Source: Spirochaetota bacterium | GTDB lineage: Bacteria > Spirochaetota > Brachyspiria > Brachyspirales > JACRPF01 | Assembly: GCA_038043445.1 (NCBI GenBank) | Contig: JBBTBY010000152.1 | Span: 1 to 37,419 of the forward strand | DNA length: 37,419 bases | Reading direction: 5' to 3' | In this document: positions 25,781 through 35,787 of the stretch, piece after piece | How the letters are laid out: the number at the start of each line of letters is the position of its first letter | Numbering within the stretch: position 1 is the first letter of the stretch | Translations under genes and position numbers: made by a program | The notes under the pieces: generated by a model | Told to the model about the DNA's origin: nothing | Seen by the model: the letters and a program-made list of their open reading frames with translations, nothing else | Databases searched by the model: none

Positions 25781-25824
25781 GACGATGCAGAACACGGGGC
25801 TTAAGCCCCGTGCTCTGCATCGTC
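25781..25824. repeat. Near-perfect 44-nt palindrome in the exbD leader
   Basis: Two 22-nt arms, 25781-25802 and 25803-25824, are reverse complements with a single mismatch and no spacer; the centre is GGGGCTTAAGCCCC. As RNA it would form a very stable hairpin ending 2-3 nt before the exbD Shine-Dalgarno (GAGGTGAG) and 11 nt before the ATG. It has no U-tract and so is not an intrinsic terminator. It resembles dispersed palindromic repeats of the REP type; copies elsewhere cannot be checked here. Confidence 0.8.
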
Positions 25825-25835
25825 GTGAGGTGAGC

Positions 25836-26267
25836 ATGAAGTTCAAGCGGCGGCTGAATCAGCGTGTGGCGACCGACATCAATTCGATGATCAATATGAC
25901 GAATATGATCGATGTCCTTTTCAATCTCGTGCTTTTCCTTCTCGTCAGCACCACGATGCTCAACACGCCGCAGATAAAGATACAACTCCCGAAGTCCGGT
26001 GCGCAGGAGAAGGTGAAGAACGAAGGCGTCATCATTACGATAAGCGAGGAAGGCGTCTATCACATCAATCGCGAGCGTGTGTCGCCGTCGGAGCTTTCCG
26101 CGAAGTTGCGGCAGCTTGCCGCCGAAAAGGGCGTCGATAATCCGCTCATCGTGCGCGGCGATGAGAAGATACCCTACGGCAGGCTCATGGACGTCATGGA
26201 CATGGCGAAAGCGGCGGGTTTCGTGAAGCTGAGCCTCGCCACAACGCCGCGAGAGCGGGGCCGATGA
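25836..26267 (+). CDS. exbD: ExbD/TolR-family biopolymer transport protein
   Basis: 143 residues: a basic cytoplasmic N-terminus, one membrane helix (about 24-42) with the proton-relay aspartate Asp26 in NMIDVLFNLVLFLLVS, and a periplasmic domain (QIKIQLPKSG..., then IITISEEGVYHINRERVS, PLIVRGDEKIPYGRLMDVMDMAKAAGF). It uses the proton motive force together with ExbB to drive TonB. No ExbB/TolQ gene is in the window. The ATG at 25836 is chosen from GAGGTGAG just upstream. Its stop overlaps the tonB start (ATGA). Confidence 0.9.
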   Translation: MKFKRRLNQRVATDINSMINMTNMIDVLFNLVLFLLVSTTMLNTPQIKIQLPKSGAQEKVKNEGVIITISEEGVYHINRERVSPSELSAKLRQLAAEKGVDNPLIVRGDEKIPYGRLMDVMDMAKAAGFVKLSLATTPRERGR

Positions 26268-26998
26268 GACGGTTCTTCAGTGCCGACAATCTGCCGTTCT
26301 CGTTCACCGGGTCGGTGGCCGTACATTTCATCGTGCTCATCCTTATCGTTCTCTTCTATCGGCCCGATGCCGCGATGATGGGGCGGCAGACGAGCATTGT
26401 CGTATCCGATGACGTCCGATTCTATGCGAATCCCGATTTCAGGGCGAAAGGGAGCGCCCCGGGTATGTCGCGTCCTGACGGCGGCACCAAGGCCGCTCTG
26501 GCCGATGCCGGTGTCACCGGACTGAAAGAAGATAGCGATATCCGCCCCGACGATATCGTCATTGATAATAAAAAGACCGCAGGCGGGGATGCGAAGACCG
26601 ATACGCGTTCGGCGCTCGAAAAGCTTTCCGATTATCTGAAAGGCACGGACGATGATTCCCTTTTTTCCGGCGGCGAGAAAAAAAGCGGCGGCAACACGGC
26701 CGGCGATAACAATGCCGAGGGCGTACAATGGGACGGGAATGCGCGCGGCATGCCGGTCTACAGGGACGATCCGTTATATCCCGCAGCGCTCGCCGGGAGC
26801 GGCATAGCAGGCACCGTGCTTGTTGCGGTAAAGGTCGCTCCGGACGGCAGGGTGTTTTCCCCGTCGGTGATAAAGAGTTCCGGGTACAATGAATTCGACA
26901 GGAATGCTGTTGCCGCTGCGCGGACATACCGCTTTCGCGCGATAGCCGGGGACCGCATCGATTCGGGGACATTGACGATACGATTTGTGCCGAAGTGA
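26264..26998 (+). CDS. tonB: TonB-family energy transducer
   Basis: 244 residues. One membrane anchor (about residues 14-32) near the N-terminus, a periplasmic linker, and a C-terminal TonB domain from about residue 163: PVYRDDPLYPAALAGSGIAG, then TVLVAVKVAPDGRVFSPSVIKSSGYNEFDRNAVAAARTYRFRA. The linker is rich in Gly, Asp and Lys and lacks the Pro-Glu/Pro-Lys repeats of classical TonB. It is coupled to exbD by an ATGA overlap, and tamB follows after 4 nt. The usual partner would be a TonB-dependent receptor, but here the immediate neighbours are outer-membrane biogenesis genes. Confidence 0.88.
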   Translation: MRRFFSADNLPFSFTGSVAVHFIVLILIVLFYRPDAAMMGRQTSIVVSDDVRFYANPDFRAKGSAPGMSRPDGGTKAALADAGVTGLKEDSDIRPDDIVIDNKKTAGGDAKTDTRSALEKLSDYLKGTDDDSLFSGGEKKSGGNTAGDNNAEGVQWDGNARGMPVYRDDPLYPAALAGSGIAGTVLVAVKVAPDGRVFSPSVIKSSGYNEFDRNAVAAARTYRFRAIAGDRIDSGTLTIRFVPK

Positions 26999-27002
26999 GC
27001 CG

Positions 27003-30000
27003 ATGAACACCATTCGTTCCTTCATTGTCAAGCATCCATTGGTCACTCTGGTGCTCGCCATTATCAGCGCGGGGTTCATACTGCAGCTCGCGCTGACCAT
27101 AGCGCTTGATATCGCCGTCCGCGGCATGCTTGCCTCGGCGTTCAAGGACACGTATCGCATATCAAAGGCATGGGTGACGTTCAGCTGGTGGGGCGGCGTT
27201 CGCATCGGGCGGATATCCGTTTCGTCGAAAGAGAAGCCCGCTGAGAAGATCATCACTATCGATGAGCTCATTCTGTCCCCGGATTACCGCGGATATCTCT
27301 CTTCGTTCGATATACGCCGTGCGGTCGCTGTCGCTACGGTAATAAGGCCGCGCGTCTATCTGCCGCTGCCGGAAAAAAAGATGGCAGCCGTTCCGTTCTC
27401 CGCCATCATCTCGAATGCCGTGCATATGGCCGAAGTGTTCAGCGGACGGACCGTCATCATCCATGATGGCGGCATTTCGTATGTACTGCCGTCAAAGGGC
27501 GAGCGGCGATATCTCGGTCTCATCAACGGTATCGATGCGGTGCTTGAGATATCGCGCAAGGAATACTATTGTGCGGTGAACACCCGATTCGGTTCTGCAC
27601 GCTGCAATATCGCGGCGACCATCGATCCGGCGCTTCTGTTCGCGGACGCCAATATCCTCGTGTATGACAGCGAGGGCATACAGCTCAAATACGGCCTCAC
27701 CCTTCGGCGTACCAACGGCATCGTGCGCGGCGACATGACCGATCGACGCGATGTGTCGGTAGGCTCGGCGTTCTGGGACAGCGACCGCGGGACGTATGAT
27801 GTCCGTTTCTCTCACGATCGCCTCAGGCCGACGCTTATCGCAAAAGCGCTCGCGCATGCGTTCCCCGCGTTCTATGACGCGAAGACCACCGGCGTACTGC
27901 AGGTGCTCCGCAATGAGGTCGAGGGGCTTTCCCTCCTCGCTGTCGATGCACGGCTGCGCAGGAACGAGATTGGCTCCGATCGATACGTCAGCCTGCGCAT
28001 GTCCGGGGGCAGCAGCGAAGTTCGGCTTCGTGTGAGCGCGGACGATAACGGGGTGACGGCGGACGCACGTGTACGGTACGGCGGCGGGAGTGCGAATGCA
28101 CAGGCGCGATTCGCTTTTTCGGGGCCATTCCCGGAACGTGTCGTTTTTTCGTCCTCTTCGTTCCCGCTCGGGGCTTCACGGCTGACCGCTCGTATCAATG
28201 CGGAGTCGATCGGATCGGATGCGGGGCAATACCGATACCGTATCGGTATCTATGACATGCGTTTCGGCGATTATTATGGTGCACGCGCCCAATTCGTCGC
28301 CGGATACGAGACGAGTTCGAAGACCATGTCTTTCTTGAGCACGCATGAAGGGTTCCGCGTTGCCGGGTCGATATGCTCGGACCCGGCAGCAGCAGCGGTC
28401 GCCGATATCTCTGTCGCCAAGCTGCCCTTATCCCTTTTTACCGCGTTCAGCGGACTGGGCGCGCTCGGGGGCTCCGCCCTCGTCGATCTCGGCTATACCG
28501 CGGTCCGCATCAAGGGGAAGGAAGTGCATCGCCTGACATCATCGGTGAGCGAGGGGTTCACCGGCAGGAAGATCGCCGGGCTCGAGGGGGGTATGGATGA
28601 TGCTCGTATCGAATGTCGCGATCTTTTTGTGCATACCGGACTGGGCACGGTGCGCTTTTCCGGCATGATAGACGGAACGACGGGTGATGCGTTCTCCATC
28701 AACGGGAGCTTGAAGACCCCCGCGGGCATCTATCCCATCGGAGGGAGTATTGCCGGGAAGGAACGGCGTACTATCGCGATAGGCTCGAAGGACGGGAATA
28801 TTTCCGTGAACGGGTTCGCCGGCATGGACGGCGTACGCATCATGGTGCGTACCGGACTTCTGCCGATTCATCAGCGAATATCGGCCGGGATACGACTTCT
28901 CATCGATACCGCGGCGACGAACGGCATAGTATCCGGTTCGCTCACCATGCGCGAGCGGTCAGCAACGCCGATATCCGCAGGGGCGTCGTTCCGGCTCATG
29001 AAAGAGCTCGTACTCGATACGCTGTACTATGAATGGGGAGGGCTGCGCCTGACGGGGAGCGGCACGGTCGGCATGAGGGATGATGTGCTTCACGCAGAAG
29101 CGGCTTTGTTCACCCCGGCATCCAACGGCACGGCCATGATCGATCTTGATGTGAACGGGGAGCGCATCAACAGCGAGATAAAGATCGATAATATCTCGTC
29201 GGCCCATTTCGTCCATGTCCCGAACGTGATGGGGGATATCGCGGCGCGTATCGAAGTGGGCGGGACGTTTTCCGATCCGTACATAACGCTCAGGAAATTT
29301 TCCCTCCTGCGTACCGATATTTTCGGCGACCGTTACGACATCACCTGTCGGGGTACCGTGAGGAACGGCGAAGTCGCGCTCTTCGACGGCGTTATGAAAA
29401 AGACCGGTGCGCGCGGGTATCCGGTCACCGACGAGCAGCTCATCTATCTCCGCCGGATATTCCTGTCGCCCGATCAGACCGATATTCAGGTCGAATGCCG
29501 CAATTTCGATTATCTGAGCGTATTCGACGGCGCGCTTGCGATACGGTCCGTACGCCGCGGGAAGACGCGCTATGTATCGGCGTCAACGGCGAATTTCCTT
29601 GTTAATAAAAAGGCCATACCGCCGTTCTCTTTTGTCATGGACGATCGCGATGGTGTGGCGATATTCTCCTCGCAGACGGGGCATGGCCTGCGCGGGACGC
29701 TCACGAGGGGCGACCGGGGACGGCGGACGGATGTCCGGCTCGGTTATTTCCTCGACAATAACGAGCAGATATCGGCAAAGGGTTTTGTGCAGGACGGTAT
29801 CGCGCGGATAGCAGTAACCTCGAGCACGATGACGGCGGCGCCGCTTGCGCTGCTCAGTCATTTCCTTTTTGTCAGGCTTGACGGCGAGGCGTACCTGTTC
29901 GAGAAGAACGGGAAGAAATATACGCTCTATCTCGATGCGACCGGCCCGCTCGGCGACCTCTCGTTCTCCGGGCGCTTCCGGAGCCGAGCCCAGGTGAGGC

Positions 30001-31319
30001 TGAACCTGTTCCAGAACGAGTTCCGCGACTGTGTTCTCGATCTCGGCTTTGAGAACAAGCGTATCGTCGCGAATGAATGCTCTTTCCGCGACGGTGCCGC
30101 GGCGGTCACGGTCAACGGCTCCGTTTCCATTGCGCGGAACATGATCGATCAGCTTGCGTTCCGTGTGATAAGCTCATCGAACACCATGCTCACCGCCTCC
30201 GCGGACCTCGGTTTCCTCAGGCTCGACGGTCCGGCAGCGTTCCATCTTGATTTTTCAGAAAGTTTCCTGTTCCCGCGGATCACGGGTGCGGTGCAGACGA
30301 GGAACAGCGATATCATGTTCATCGGCGGCGGGAACTCGGCATATCGCCCCCGCTTCGGCGAGTTCTTTATCAATGCCGCATGGAACCTTGCGATAGCTGC
30401 AGGGAACAGCGTTCATTTCTACAATGCGATCGTCGGGGATTCGTATATCAAGGACGGCTCGAGCATGCGCATACTCGGGCGCGCGTCGGACCAGACGCTT
30501 GCGCTCCGCGGGAGTATCGCCGCGCATCACGGAACGGCGTACTATCTCAACAACGCGTATCAGCTTGAGAACCTCACGGTGACTTTTCCGGAGCTTGCGA
30601 GCTTCGATCCCATCATCGAGGGACGCGGGAAAACAAGGAAAAAGTTCCGTGTCGGCAGCGAAACACTCGATGTGACGCTCTATCTCGAGGTGTCGGGGCG
30701 CTTTTCCGAGATCATGAAGAACCCCATGTACGCCACGAGCGTTCCCGCGCGTTTCTATACCGTGCCTGCTGTCAAGGACGAGTACGTGCGCGAACTGGTG
30801 GGGCTCCCCGCCGCCCGGGAAGAGCGCACTCCCGGGAGTGCGGAGGACGAGATGCAGCGTACGCTCGCGAGCGTGCTCCCCGCGGACATGATCATGCGCG
30901 ACAGCGTGCTCCGCCCGCTCGAGCGCAATGTGCGGCGTTTCACCGGTCTTGATTATTTCGGCATCGAGACAGGCGCGTTCAGCCGCCTTTCCATGTCGCT
31001 CCTGACGAATACGCTCTCGGGCGTGCTCGATAACCCCGGGTATTTCCTGCAGGACACGCGGGTATCGTTCGGGAAGTATCTGCCGTTCAATCAGATCGCG
31101 AATTTCCTTCCTGAGATCTATCTGAAATACAATTTGACGATCATCGGGAATCTTGGTTTATGGGAACATGAGCGGGTGCTTCAGCATGAGCTGGCCGTGG
31201 AACTGGACTTGGCACAGTTCTCCGACCTTGCAAATTTTATCTTTGAATATACAATTGACCCGTCAAGCGTGACCAATATCGAACAAAAAATAAGCGTTAG
31301 TACGAGATGGAGATTTTAA
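27003..31319 (+). CDS. tamB: TamB/AsmA-like translocation and assembly protein
   Basis: 1438 residues. An N-terminal membrane anchor (about 13-36, LVTLVLAIISAGFILQLALTI) is followed by a very long beta-rich periplasmic region (repeated strands such as VSLRMSGGSSEVRLRV and HAEAALFTPASNGTAMIDLD) and a C-terminal DUF490/TamB domain (about 1090-1438: AYYLNNAYQLENLTVTFPE, DVTLYLEVSGRF, then LPEIYLKYNLTIIGNL). TamB-like proteins form a hydrophobic groove bridging the inner and outer membranes and take part in outer-membrane protein assembly or phospholipid transport. Its last 13 bp overlap bamA. The start at 27003 (MNTIRSF) gives the anchor directly. Confidence 0.88.
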   Translation: MNTIRSFIVKHPLVTLVLAIISAGFILQLALTIALDIAVRGMLASAFKDTYRISKAWVTFSWWGGVRIGRISVSSKEKPAEKIITIDELILSPDYRGYLSSFDIRRAVAVATVIRPRVYLPLPEKKMAAVPFSAIISNAVHMAEVFSGRTVIIHDGGISYVLPSKGERRYLGLINGIDAVLEISRKEYYCAVNTRFGSARCNIAATIDPALLFADANILVYDSEGIQLKYGLTLRRTNGIVRGDMTDRRDVSVGSAFWDSDRGTYDVRFSHDRLRPTLIAKALAHAFPAFYDAKTTGVLQVLRNEVEGLSLLAVDARLRRNEIGSDRYVSLRMSGGSSEVRLRVSADDNGVTADARVRYGGGSANAQARFAFSGPFPERVVFSSSSFPLGASRLTARINAESIGSDAGQYRYRIGIYDMRFGDYYGARAQFVAGYETSSKTMSFLSTHEGFRVAGSICSDPAAAAVADISVAKLPLSLFTAFSGLGALGGSALVDLGYTAVRIKGKEVHRLTSSVSEGFTGRKIAGLEGGMDDARIECRDLFVHTGLGTVRFSGMIDGTTGDAFSINGSLKTPAGIYPIGGSIAGKERRTIAIGSKDGNISVNGFAGMDGVRIMVRTGLLPIHQRISAGIRLLIDTAATNGIVSGSLTMRERSATPISAGASFRLMKELVLDTLYYEWGGLRLTGSGTVGMRDDVLHAEAALFTPASNGTAMIDLDVNGERINSEIKIDNISSAHFVHVPNVMGDIAARIEVGGTFSDPYITLRKFSLLRTDIFGDRYDITCRGTVRNGEVALFDGVMKKTGARGYPVTDEQLIYLRRIFLSPDQTDIQVECRNFDYLSVFDGALAIRSVRRGKTRYVSASTANFLVNKKAIPPFSFVMDDRDGVAIFSSQTGHGLRGTLTRGDRGRRTDVRLGYFLDNNEQISAKGFVQDGIARIAVTSSTMTAAPLALLSHFLFVRLDGEAYLFEKNGKKYTLYLDATGPLGDLSFSGRFRSRAQVRLNLFQNEFRDCVLDLGFENKRIVANECSFRDGAAAVTVNGSVSIARNMIDQLAFRVISSSNTMLTASADLGFLRLDGPAAFHLDFSESFLFPRITGAVQTRNSDIMFIGGGNSAYRPRFGEFFINAAWNLAIAAGNSVHFYNAIVGDSYIKDGSSMRILGRASDQTLALRGSIAAHHGTAYYLNNAYQLENLTVTFPELASFDPIIEGRGKTRKKFRVGSETLDVTLYLEVSGRFSEIMKNPMYATSVPARFYTVPAVKDEYVRELVGLPAAREERTPGSAEDEMQRTLASVLPADMIMRDSVLRPLERNVRRFTGLDYFGIETGAFSRLSMSLLTNTLSGVLDNPGYFLQDTRVSFGKYLPFNQIANFLPEIYLKYNLTIIGNLGLWEHERVLQHELAVELDLAQFSDLANFIFEYTIDPSSVTNIEQKISVSTRWRF

Positions 31320-33946
31320 AACACTGTGGCCCGCGTGTGCGCGCCGTCTGTATTCTGGCGTCAGCCGCGGTACTCGCGCTTTACGCCGGACAGTCGGATT
31401 TCGCATCGCTGAAAGATGCCCCGCTGCCCGCTGCCTATCAGGGCCTTGTCATCTACGATATTCTCGTTAAAGGCAATGTCAATCAGGATATCGGCCGCAT
31501 CCGCGGTCTCATGGCATCAGCCCCCGGCAGAAAACTCGTGCTTTCCGAGATCAATGAGGACTTGAAGACGCTTTTCTCGACCGGCCTTTTCGATAACATT
31601 TCCATTGATGCGGCGAATGTCGGCGGGAAGGTGCTCCTTACCGTCATCGTCGATGAACGGCCGGTGGTGCGCCGCATCGAATATATCGGCAATGAAAAAA
31701 AGACGATCGAGCAGCTCAATGACACGGTGGAGCCGTATCTCAAACCGGGCGAGGTGTTCAGCCGCAGACGCCTTGATGACGCTGCCGATGCCATAACCTC
31801 GCTCTACCGCGATGACGGTTTCCTCGCCGCGTTCGTCCGTTCCGAGATGAACGCCGATGAGGCAAATGAATCGGTCGATGTGGTGTTCCGTGTCGAAGAG
31901 GGAAAGGATATACGGGTGCGGCAGGTCCGCTTCCATGGGAACAGGGAGATAGCCGAGGGCGATCTGAAGTCGGTGATGGATACGAAGGAGGATGTGTTCT
32001 TCGGCATCATCAATGAAGGAAAGTTCAAGCAGGCCGCGTTCGAGCTTGACAAAGAGAAGATAGTGACATTCTACAAGATACGCGGTTTTTACAAGGCGCG
32101 CATACGCAACGTGAAGATCGATTATCGGTGGCGCAATCCGCAGGAAAAGACCGCGAAGGACATGTTCATCGATATCGACGTTGCTGAGGGTGAAAAATAC
32201 TTCTTCGGCGATATTTCCGTCAAGGGCAATAAGCTTCTAACCACACAGTCCATCTACGACGATTTCAAGGCGAAAAAGAGCGATGTCTACAATTACGAGA
32301 TTGCCGCCACCGATCAGCAGATGCTCATGATGAAATACCGCGAGCGTGGCTATATTTTCAGTATCGTGCGCCCGGTGACCGATGTCGACGATGAGAAGCA
32401 TATCGTGAACATCATGTACGATATTTACGAAGGGGATAAGGCGCATATCGAGAACATCGTCGTCAAGGGCAATGCCAAGACGAAAGAGCATGTCATACGC
32501 CGCTTTATCGAAGTGAAAGAGGGCGAGATATTCAATGCGTTGAAGATACAGACGAGCCGCGAGAAGATATTCAATACGCAGTTCTTCAAGGATGTGAAAC
32601 TGGACGCGCGCCCCGGCACCACGGAAGGCCTCATGAACCTTGTCTTCGATGTGGAGGAGGGGCAGACAGGCATGCTCTCCGGCGGCGGCAGTTACGGCAC
32701 CGCCTCGGGACTCGGTCTGAATTTCGAGATACGCGAGATCAATTTCTTCGGCAGCGGACAGACCCTGAGCACGAAACTCGATATCAGCCAGTATACCAAG
32801 CGCATCGCGGTGAGTTTCATTGAGCCGTACGTGTTCAACCTGCCGTTCTATTTCGGCTCCGAATTGTCGTACAATGACTATGAGACGCAGGTCACCGACG
32901 TTACGAATTTCGGGGATGGAAAATATCCGAAGTACGGTACGCGAAGCATAGACCTCGGGTTGACGCTCGGTTTCTATTTCTGGGATTACTTCCGCGCACT
33001 GTTCTCCGTACGCCCGTCGTTCTTCAGTTATTACCAGATGGTCGGTGAGCCGATGTATGCTGCAACGAACGGCCCGCAGTATGTTCCGGTGTTCTATAGG
33101 ATGTCCAATGAGATGAAACGCTACCTCTATGGCGGCGGAACGAATTATTCGGTATCTACCATCGGCTGGGAGTCGCCGATGCTGTTCAATGTAACGCTCA
33201 CGCTCAATCTCACACGCGACAGCCGCAATAATATCATAAACCCCACGCGCGGATGGTCGGCAGGTATAAACGCCGATATGATATTCGGCGATACCATGCT
33301 TTCAAAGGTCGTCATGAACGGCTCGCTCGTCGTGCCGGTCAACATCGGTTCGTTCAGTTCCGCGCTTGTGTTCTTCGGCGAGTACGGCACATTGCTTGAC
33401 AGCCCGTTCAGCGGCAGCATGTCGAATATGGAAAATTATCTGTTTTATATAAATCTCCTCGAAGATGTACGCGGGTGGGATGCGGGGAGCTATGTGAATT
33501 TCAAAAGCTATCATGCGCTTCCCATTTATACCTATGCCAGTTCCGGGCAGCAGTACGCGCTCGGGAAAAGCCGCCTGCGGCTCTCCATGGAATATCGCGT
33601 ACCGGTGGTGCCGAACATGCTCGGTGCCGTCGCCTTCCTCGATGCCGGACAGACCTGGTACAGCGCGGGGCCCTATCACCCCGAGTTCTATTTCGGTGAT
33701 TTCGACAACAGCCTGCTTAATGCGAAGCATTATATCTATTCCACCGGCATCGGTCTGCGTGTGCTCATGCCCATGCTCCCGATACGGCTCTATCTTGCGA
33801 AACGTTTTGTCATGACGAGCATCGGCCCCAGGGATTTCGCGGGCGAGACCGGCGAATCGTTTTTCGGCAAGGTAGGAAGTTTCCTTAACTGGCCTTTCCT
33901 CGGTAAGGGTTGGGAATTCGTTCTCAGTATGAGCCAGACATTCTGA
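31307..33946 (+). CDS. bamA: Outer membrane protein assembly factor BamA
   Basis: 879 residues. A signal sequence (about 8-28) is followed by five POTRA domains: about 47-118, 119-200, 201-292, 293-374 and 375-452, each with the strand-helix pattern and KGN/xGN turn (VKGNVNQ, YIGNEKK, FHGNREI, VKGNKLL, VKGNAKT). Then comes a 16-strand barrel region of about 425 residues starting at MLSGGGSYGTASGLGL. A VRGWD motif takes the place of the lid-lock VRGF of loop 6, and the protein ends in Phe (MSQTF), the outer-membrane recognition signal. Five POTRAs point to BamA rather than TamA, which has three. It overlaps tamB by 13 bp, so the two are co-translated. Confidence 0.93.
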   Translation: MEILKHCGPRVRAVCILASAAVLALYAGQSDFASLKDAPLPAAYQGLVIYDILVKGNVNQDIGRIRGLMASAPGRKLVLSEINEDLKTLFSTGLFDNISIDAANVGGKVLLTVIVDERPVVRRIEYIGNEKKTIEQLNDTVEPYLKPGEVFSRRRLDDAADAITSLYRDDGFLAAFVRSEMNADEANESVDVVFRVEEGKDIRVRQVRFHGNREIAEGDLKSVMDTKEDVFFGIINEGKFKQAAFELDKEKIVTFYKIRGFYKARIRNVKIDYRWRNPQEKTAKDMFIDIDVAEGEKYFFGDISVKGNKLLTTQSIYDDFKAKKSDVYNYEIAATDQQMLMMKYRERGYIFSIVRPVTDVDDEKHIVNIMYDIYEGDKAHIENIVVKGNAKTKEHVIRRFIEVKEGEIFNALKIQTSREKIFNTQFFKDVKLDARPGTTEGLMNLVFDVEEGQTGMLSGGGSYGTASGLGLNFEIREINFFGSGQTLSTKLDISQYTKRIAVSFIEPYVFNLPFYFGSELSYNDYETQVTDVTNFGDGKYPKYGTRSIDLGLTLGFYFWDYFRALFSVRPSFFSYYQMVGEPMYAATNGPQYVPVFYRMSNEMKRYLYGGGTNYSVSTIGWESPMLFNVTLTLNLTRDSRNNIINPTRGWSAGINADMIFGDTMLSKVVMNGSLVVPVNIGSFSSALVFFGEYGTLLDSPFSGSMSNMENYLFYINLLEDVRGWDAGSYVNFKSYHALPIYTYASSGQQYALGKSRLRLSMEYRVPVVPNMLGAVAFLDAGQTWYSAGPYHPEFYFGDFDNSLLNAKHYIYSTGIGLRVLMPMLPIRLYLAKRFVMTSIGPRDFAGETGESFFGKVGSFLNWPFLGKGWEFVLSMSQTF

Positions 33947-33961: not shown

Positions 33962-34822
33962 TTAAAGGTCTTTTTTGTCCTTCAGGAGCGATTTCTCTTC
34001 GCTCGAATCCTTATCGCGCTTCTGTCTGAGCTTCGTATCGACATCGGTCTCGACATCGAGGTCGCGTGTCTTCTTTATTTCATTCGCTTTCACGTCGGTG
34101 CCTTCGATGGTGACCGCGGCTTTGCCTGTGGTCTCACCTGCGCCGATGTCGCCGGAAAGCACAAGCTCTATCTTTTTTAGATTTCCCGCCATGTCGCCGA
34201 CGTTCTTTATCGAAGCGATGTCCTTGATATTGAGTATCTCCTTCACTTCACCGAAAGAATCCTTGTTAATGCTGACCACTTCGAGCTTTTTATTGGGCGC
34301 GGTAGTGAGCTCTTTCAGTTCAGGGATGCTCACTTCATTCCCGCCGCTTTTCACGGCCACCTCGCCGGTGAGCACCGCTATCTTCGTTGTGCCGGGAGAA
34401 GCCGATATGCTGAACGACGTGCCGCGAACGGCCGCTACCGCGCTCGGTGTTTCGACCGTGACCGCATCGGCGCCGTTCATGAGCTTTTTGACGCCGAAGA
34501 GCATATTGCCTTTGGAGAGGTTCATCTTCATTTTACCGGAGCGGTTCACCATGTCGTTTATCCGAACGCTCGTATTCTCCTTGAGAGTAAAGACGCCGAA
34601 ATCCTCGACCTTTATCGTTATCTCGCTCTTTGCGCCGGTCACGATGAGGTCATTGACCAGGATGGGGTCACCGGACTCCACCGATTTTGCGATCGATCTG
34701 CCGGAGTAGACCATGACCTTGCCGTTCACGCTCGTAGCGACCGCTATCTTGGAGAGATCTACGGCACCATATGAAAGCGTATACAGAAGAATACACGGTA
34801 AAACCATTCGAAGGGCTATCAT
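33962..34822 (-). CDS. Secreted FecR-domain protein
   Basis: 286 residues. A signal peptide (about 1-19, LRMVLPCILLYTLSYGA) without a lipobox is followed by a FecR domain (about 30-165): GDPILVNDLIVTGAKSEITIKVEDFGVFTLKENTSVRI, then TVETPSAVAAVRGTSFSIS and IAVLTGEVAVKS. The tail is highly charged (KKTRDLDVETDVDTKLRQKRDKDSSEEKS is the style) and lacks known domains. There is no cytoplasmic anti-sigma part, so it is not a classic FecR regulator; stand-alone exported FecR domains are common in diderm bacteria and their role is unclear. AGGAG precedes the ATG. It follows the CsgG-like gene by 80 nt on the same strand. Confidence 0.82.
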   Translation of the reverse strand: MIALRMVLPCILLYTLSYGAVDLSKIAVATSVNGKVMVYSGRSIAKSVESGDPILVNDLIVTGAKSEITIKVEDFGVFTLKENTSVRINDMVNRSGKMKMNLSKGNMLFGVKKLMNGADAVTVETPSAVAAVRGTSFSISASPGTTKIAVLTGEVAVKSGGNEVSIPELKELTTAPNKKLEVVSINKDSFGEVKEILNIKDIASIKNVGDMAGNLKKIELVLSGDIGAGETTGKAAVTIEGTDVKANEIKKTRDLDVETDVDTKLRQKRDKDSSEEKSLLKDKKDL

Positions 34823-34902: not shown

Positions 34903-35787
34903 CTAATGTTTTGACATAGATTCTTCCCGGATACGCAGCGTCGCGAGCGGGGGGATGACTGCAGGGAATGACAGGAGCTCCATGATCGAAAAATCACGAT
35001 GTACCTCGATTATCCTGGCTTTCCCGACCAATTGCCAGGATAGCTCGCCGGGGATGAGGTTCGTGATGAGTATGTGCTTTACATTCGTCTGCCCGTCCGG
35101 AAGGGCGAAGGGTGTTTCATCACGGATGCTGACGATGTCGAAACGCTGTCCGACCACGATGCTGTGCCGTTCGCCGAGCGAGCAGTATGCCGTCCCTCTC
35201 TCTATCTTGATGATGCGCCCATCGAGCGGCGGGTATTGGAGCGCTGCGATCGCGTCCGCTATCGCTTCATCGATACAATCGGTAAGCACGGTACCTGCCG
35301 GGCTCTTGAGGAACGCGATGTCTTCCGGGCGAAGTACCGGGCAGTCGCCGTCGAGCGTACGCTCAAGCCGTTTCGTGCCCTGGTGGACGGTCCTTCCGCT
35401 CGATGCCTCGACAACACGCACGGCTATCTCGGCACTCACCTGACAGGTCGATCGCTTATCGAACGCTCGTTCGCCCGCTTTGAACGATCGCATCTCGGCG
35501 TTGATGAGATAATCCACCCCGAACACCGTGCCGCATATCTGTCCGGCCTGTCTGCTCTTGAGCGATACGCCCTGTTCGGCGATATATGCCTTTATCCGTT
35601 CGCGCTCCGGCACCGTGAACCGCTGGCTTCGCACGAAGGCGTCCGAGAGTATGAAGGTGAATGCTTCGGCTGCCGCTGCTTTCCCGCGGTATTCGACCGG
35701 AAGGATGAACAGCGAGAGTGCATGCGCCTCAAAAGCGAGCGCGAAAAGCATCGGCAGGAGAGGGCGATAGGACCGTTCCATGATCAT
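34903..35787 (-). CDS. CsgG/LpoB-like exported protein
   Basis: 294 residues. A signal peptide ends near residue 23 (ALAFEAHA), with no cysteine after it, so it is not an obvious lipoprotein. LFILPVEYRGKAAAAEAFTFILSDAFVRSQRFTVPERERIKAYIAEQGVS resembles the CsgG/TolB-N-like fold (two strands, ls..l...L, grf.vveR..i..il.EQ). The region IICGTVFGVDYLINAEM fits the next conserved strand (GxxxGADYLVxG). The C-terminal 100 residues (DGRIIKIERGTAYCSLGERHSIVVGQRFDIVSI) look like the flagellar-assembly-T/FlgT-like or SH3-like domain often attached. Start choice: ATG at 35787, or 35781, 6 and 12 nt after a -10 box, without Shine-Dalgarno. Confidence 0.7.
   Translation of the reverse strand: MIMERSYRPLLPMLFALAFEAHALSLFILPVEYRGKAAAAEAFTFILSDAFVRSQRFTVPERERIKAYIAEQGVSLKSRQAGQICGTVFGVDYLINAEMRSFKAGERAFDKRSTCQVSAEIAVRVVEASSGRTVHQGTKRLERTLDGDCPVLRPEDIAFLKSPAGTVLTDCIDEAIADAIAALQYPPLDGRIIKIERGTAYCSLGERHSIVVGQRFDIVSIRDETPFALPDGQTNVKHILITNLIPGELSWQLVGKARIIEVHRDFSIMELLSFPAVIPPLATLRIREESMSKH

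Follow-up and report, generated by a model that had tools for sequence, protein, structure and literature searches.

Why are exbD and tonB encoded in one operon with tamB and bamA in a spirochaete, and which outer-membrane partner does this TonB serve? The window analyzed here, i.e. the whole stretch of 37,419 nucleotides (positions 1-37419 of contig C152, JBBTBY010000152.1), belongs to the assembly of a Spirochaetota bacterium (G000; 5.13 Mb in 178 contigs, 97% complete). Judging from the sequence comparisons reported below, exbD and tonB of the window are probably parts of the sole Ton motor detectable in this genome, carried by an old outer-membrane operon and serving receptors in this bacterium.

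The operon comprises four genes, all on the + strand: exbD (25836-26267, 143 aa; Pfam ExbD, E 5.8e-30), tonB (26264-26998, 244 aa; TonB_C, E 2.8e-13), tamB (27003-31319, 1438 aa), which encodes an AsmA/TamB-type periplasmic bridge protein, and bamA (31307-33946, 879 aa). A 4-bp overlap (ATGA) joins exbD to tonB, a 4-nt gap separates tonB from tamB, and tamB and bamA overlap by 13 bp. The gene order and the overlaps given in the original prediction are therefore real, as both domain matches and junctions check out. In the nearest relative (G001, 60% BamA identity) the four genes follow one another in the same way, their junctions being -4, -4 and -13, so that the 13-bp overlap is conserved and does not result from an annotation accident. 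Just upstream of the ribosome-binding site of exbD lies a palindrome of 44 nt (25781-25824; no strand assigned) with 22-nt arms that are 95% complementary and not separated by any loop; its core occurs only once within the window. Downstream of bamA, the - strand encodes a FecR-domain protein (33962-34822) and a weakly CsgG-like protein (34903-35787), and a CsgG-like gene is also found at this place in G001.

TonB of the window carries an N-terminal membrane anchor followed by a linker (both within 26264-26998) in which proline accounts for 4% of the residues, in agreement with the earlier statement that it is devoid of the classical proline repeats. The TonB C-terminal domain (26771-26986, + strand) matches TonB_C and has TonB chains as its top PDB matches. 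It is immediately preceded by the sequence QWDGNAR (26726-26746, + strand), a W...R motif typical of the TonBs associated with the spirochaetal single-ExbD lineage described below.

The identity of the two other proteins relies on different kinds of evidence. BamA combines an Omp85 barrel with five POTRA repeats, and its score with the NCBIfam BamA model reaches 443 bits for a cut-off of 297. No direct Pfam match was obtained for TamB, and its assignment comes from three other results: (i) an iterative search grouped it with spirochaete TamBs recognized by Pfam, (ii) its C-terminal profile matches the solved E. coli TamB (E 6e-8 and 1e-7), and (iii) the top matches of its predicted model, of low confidence (mean pLDDT 59), are TamAB and the beta-taco domain of TamB. 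The C-terminal DUF490 region that characterizes the TamB family was thus found both by profile match to solved TamB and by fold match; the segment aligned with it (profile positions 51-351; Foldseek matches 9xdc, 9xdd and 5vtg) corresponds to nucleotides 29907-30809 of the + strand. A second BamA-like barrel of 498 aa is encoded by another contig of the genome, C66 (L090:3734-5227, - strand); it shows 36% identity across residues 461-879 of BamA and is apparently missing the POTRA domains. The BamA search of G001 returned one match only.

The window contains neither exbB nor a receptor gene, as had been noticed; genome-wide, this statement does not hold. Two MotA/ExbB genes were found in G000: one on C109, which reads as motA because the adjacent gene reads as motB, and one of TolQ/ExbB type on C66. 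The idea of a genome devoid of exbB was thus rejected, exbB being located on a separate contig. ExbD, TonB and a TolQ/ExbB-type channel, i.e. all the components of a Ton system, are therefore encoded by G000. The genome search detected a single ExbD gene and a single TonB_C gene, both in the window, keeping in mind that, in an assembly 97% complete and split into 178 contigs, the absence of a second exbD or tonB could reflect an assembly gap. The suggested search of the genome for exbB and other tonB copies hence recovered the former and none of the latter, and the search for TonB in viral contigs gave no match.

Three Plug-domain receptors are encoded by G000, none of them with an adjacent tonB. 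The receptor of C86 is BtuB-like (TonB-B12, E 9.5e-82), carries the TonB box ADVVVTANR, and so provides an outer-membrane client with both Plug and TonB box; its gene belongs to a B12 cluster, adjoining cobT and FecCD/ABC transporter genes, without any neighbouring tonB. Likewise, the receptor gene of C103 adjoins cobU and cobS and has no neighbouring tonB. The original prediction suggested that the partner of TonB may be TamB or BamA instead of a receptor, and named as evidence to the contrary a receptor operon lacking its own TonB and needing this one. The BtuB-like receptor of the B12 cluster is precisely such a case, and the coexistence of a sole TonB_C gene with three Plug receptors deprived of their own TonB argues against the "rather than on a receptor" part of the proposal. 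Most likely, TonB of the window serves the Plug receptors of G000.

In spirochaete loci, the gene preceding exbB often encodes a BtuB-like barrel without plug. Proteins of the family that we refer to as A (476-531 aa; no Pfam match in L065) have a profile for which HHalign finds a counterpart in the C-terminal barrel of receptors of BtuB type (probability 96). Their predicted model, of low confidence (mean pLDDT 54.5), matches the BtuB fold (8p98, E 1.7e-11). Since their length leaves little room beyond the barrel, we call these proteins plugless, as a prediction. The protein encoded upstream of exbB on C66 is likely a relative of these barrels, as HHalign pairs it with family A at a probability of 74 (E 2.7e-5; <1 for shuffled controls), and family B can be compared to receptors with an HHalign probability of 76. 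HHalign did not connect family C nor the proteins of L081, L088 and L114 to receptors, so the label "barrel" is for them a matter of appearance only. Large TPR proteins (972 aa) are encoded two genes 5' of exbB in two different families (L117:2818-5733 and L088:6970-9885).

The bamA and ExbD loci of relatives were compared in a Spirochaetota sample of 24 families (f1-f24). An exbD gene, with or without exbB and tonB, immediately precedes tamB and/or bamA in nine of them (f1, f6, f9, f10, f12, f14, f16, f18 and f20), so that the order is not confined to G000, as the proposed survey of conservation asked. In f12 and f14, tamB is the only one of the two found beside exbD, and a tonB-tamB-bamA locus without exbD is carried by f3 (G055). 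The complete five-gene order exbB-exbD-tonB-tamB-bamA is present in L081 (G044), and exbB lies about 4-5 kb upstream in L076 and L079. A scan for further BamA loci was run with a six-row BamA alignment, and exbB-exbD-bamA was also encountered in further Spirochaetota and in Leptospiraceae/Leptospirales contigs. Binomial probabilities for 9 of 24 families are 1e-12 at a per-family rate of 1% and 1e-6 at 5%, for families that are related and hence not independent. In the sister group f2, tamB-bamA is present and nothing Ton-like was detected upstream; in Brachyspira-like genomes and in f4, f8, f15 and f19, tamB-bamA has no adjoining exb gene. Some Brachyspira-like relatives carry a lone ExbD (L103:8010-8417, L110:8029-8436 and L102:2511-2918) beside which neither exbB nor tonB was detected, the neighbours in L103 and L110 having CAP-, Wzt_C- and TusA-like Pfam matches.

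The spirochaete TamB profile, which a divergent TamB could escape, did not detect any TamB in f6 (G034, G057) nor in f18 (G047, G058), and gave only weak N-terminal matches in f9 and f20. All four families retain exbD beside bamA. TamB as the shared cause of the linkage was thus rejected, since the linkage is kept in f6 and f18 where no TamB was found: TamB is not the common reason for this arrangement.

A quick ExbD tree (88 sequences, few columns, several long branches) places all the ExbDs linked to tamB or bamA inside a set of 57 rows (SH-aLRT 87, unstarred), hereafter the single-ExbD lineage, which also contains many unlinked ExbDs. The double-ExbD receptor systems fall outside this set. 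Tandem ExbD pairs following exbB were observed in L131, L133, L134, L136-L139, L142 and L144, on separate branches of the tree, and these loci often also hold TonB and a receptor. Over the tree, the linked label switches at least eight times, which indicates that the arrangement is readily gained or lost. The motif W-x(4-9)-R precedes the TonB domain in 16 of the 23 TonBs of the single-ExbD lineage versus none of the 20 others; as it was spotted by eye in the same sequences as those counted, the Fisher value of 9e-7 is descriptive only. Three tamB-linked loci (L069, L081 and L084) have no match to it.

Five genomes gave no Plug match (G036, G042, G048, G054 and G059); ExbD is kept in G036, G042 and G054 and absent in G048 and G059. 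The genome of G054 (f15), a single contig 99% complete, carries exbD followed by a motif-type tonB and zero Plug receptors. In G042, exbD lies 8 nt from tamB, in a genome that is 85% complete. Both f18 genomes (G047 and G058) encode one ExbD and two TonBs, one beside a receptor and the other in exbD-tonB-bamA; in f10 (G038), a tonB gene is located near a receptor and the genome harbours another TonB-like gene. The additional TonBs of f18 and f10, along with the Plug-free G054, suggest a job other than receptor service for the single-ExbD lineage.

Several explanations can be proposed for these observations. The one that we favour for G000 is receptor service from an inherited locus: ExbB, encoded on C66 behind a TonB-receptor-like barrel, would assemble with ExbD and TonB into one motor that, like the Ton system of E. 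coli, would pass the proton-motive force to receptors with a TonB box. The clients of this motor in G000 would include at least the BtuB-type vitamin B12 receptors. The presence of exbD and tonB in a tamB-bamA operon would then be due to an old Spirochaetota assembly locus that combined both sets, exbB-exbD-tonB and (tamB-)bamA, and that would have been split or trimmed differently among families. The linkage would reflect the co-production of envelope parts needed together, and not a direct action of the motor on TamB or BamA. If, on the contrary, the genes were neighbours by inheritance and operon economy without any functional link, the repeated changes of the linked label on the ExbD tree would be readily accommodated; nine families out of 24 being far above chance, an estimate that is only a guide for families sharing ancestry, we consider this neutral explanation highly improbable. 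Direct energization of phospholipid or protein traffic through TamB is also very unlikely. It would fit the position of exbD or tonB directly 5' of tamB in f1, f10, f12, f14, f16 and f3 (tonB only for the latter), as well as the Plug-free G042, but against it speak the linkage kept in f6, f18, f9 and f20, where TamB is undetected or weakly matched, and the tamB-bamA loci of f2, f4, f8, f15 and f19 devoid of linked exb genes. In the open-licence literature, we found no description of a TamB powered by TonB/ExbD, which is weak evidence of novelty.

The main rival of receptor service is a Tol-like or BAM-directed motor: the single-ExbD lineage with its motif-bearing TonB would maintain or build the outer membrane besides any receptor work. 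Its target would be BamA or some other partner in the outer membrane, hence its staying beside bamA. We regard it as a real though lesser possibility. The bamA linkage in f6, f9, f18 and f20, seen even though TamB went unmatched in f6 and f18, speaks for it, as do the Plug-free G054 with its ExbD and motif TonB, the sharing of a sole ExbD by the separate receptor-linked TonB of f18, and the W...R motif; moreover, the sample is without convincing TolB, so that no classical Tol system was seen. On the other side stand the tamB-bamA loci without adjoining exb genes (Brachyspira-like genomes, f4, f8, f15 and f19) and the choice of the motif by eye on the counted set. The more specific proposal of a Spirochaetota motor of Ton type, equipped with a distinct TonB subtype and dedicated to the building or upkeep of the outer membrane via BamA (and TamB in the genomes that have it), receptors being secondary in G000, seems rather doubtful. 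If it were true, outer-membrane assembly would gain an input of proton-motive force. Overall, receptor service is the best-supported role, outer-membrane upkeep its main competitor, possibly as an extra role of the same motor, and direct powering of TamB appears less well supported. What remains reasonable in the original prediction is thus that these genes are functionally linked to outer-membrane biogenesis, while TamB as the specific target of TonB is weakened. The recurrent exbB-exbD-tonB-(tamB)-bamA locus provides a concrete gene set for probing a possible contribution of a proton-driven motor to outer-membrane biogenesis, and the barrel encoded next to exbB may be a client of this motor.

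Among known systems, Tol-Pal resembles the present one by its channel components, since ExbB and ExbD of G000 score higher with the TolQ and TolR models than with those of ExbB and ExbD, below the cut-offs in each case. The third component in G000 is nevertheless of TonB type and not of TolA type: TonB_C is above its cut-off, the full-length TolA model gives 23 bits for a cut-off of 59, and the TolA PDB matches are weaker than those of TonB. The TolB_N matches of G000 were weak and partial, the best one (E 2.4e-4) covering positions 5-57 of 106; the rest of the sample gave weak matches or none. The assignment to Tol-Pal was therefore rejected, on the basis of the lack of a convincing TolB and of the TonB-type C-terminal domain. 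The family A barrel encoded upstream of exbB resembles BtuB by fold (8p98) and profile but differs from it by the lack of a Plug match and by a mature length close to that of the barrel alone, its model being of low confidence. The TamB-BamA pair of Borreliella (PMC11361582) is comparable in that TamB works with BamA in the absence of TamA, and its DUF490 domain was shown there to bind POTRA2 and POTRA3 of BamA; TonB is not mentioned for this pair, whereas in G000 exbD-tonB precede tamB-bamA. Another close parallel is the TonB-ExbB-ExbD system of E. coli, with the same three protein families, the same TonB C-terminal domain and TonB-box receptors in the genome. The system of G000 differs from it in that exbB is on another contig, exbD and tonB share an operon with tamB-bamA, and TonB combines a low-proline linker with a W...R motif ahead of its C-terminal domain.
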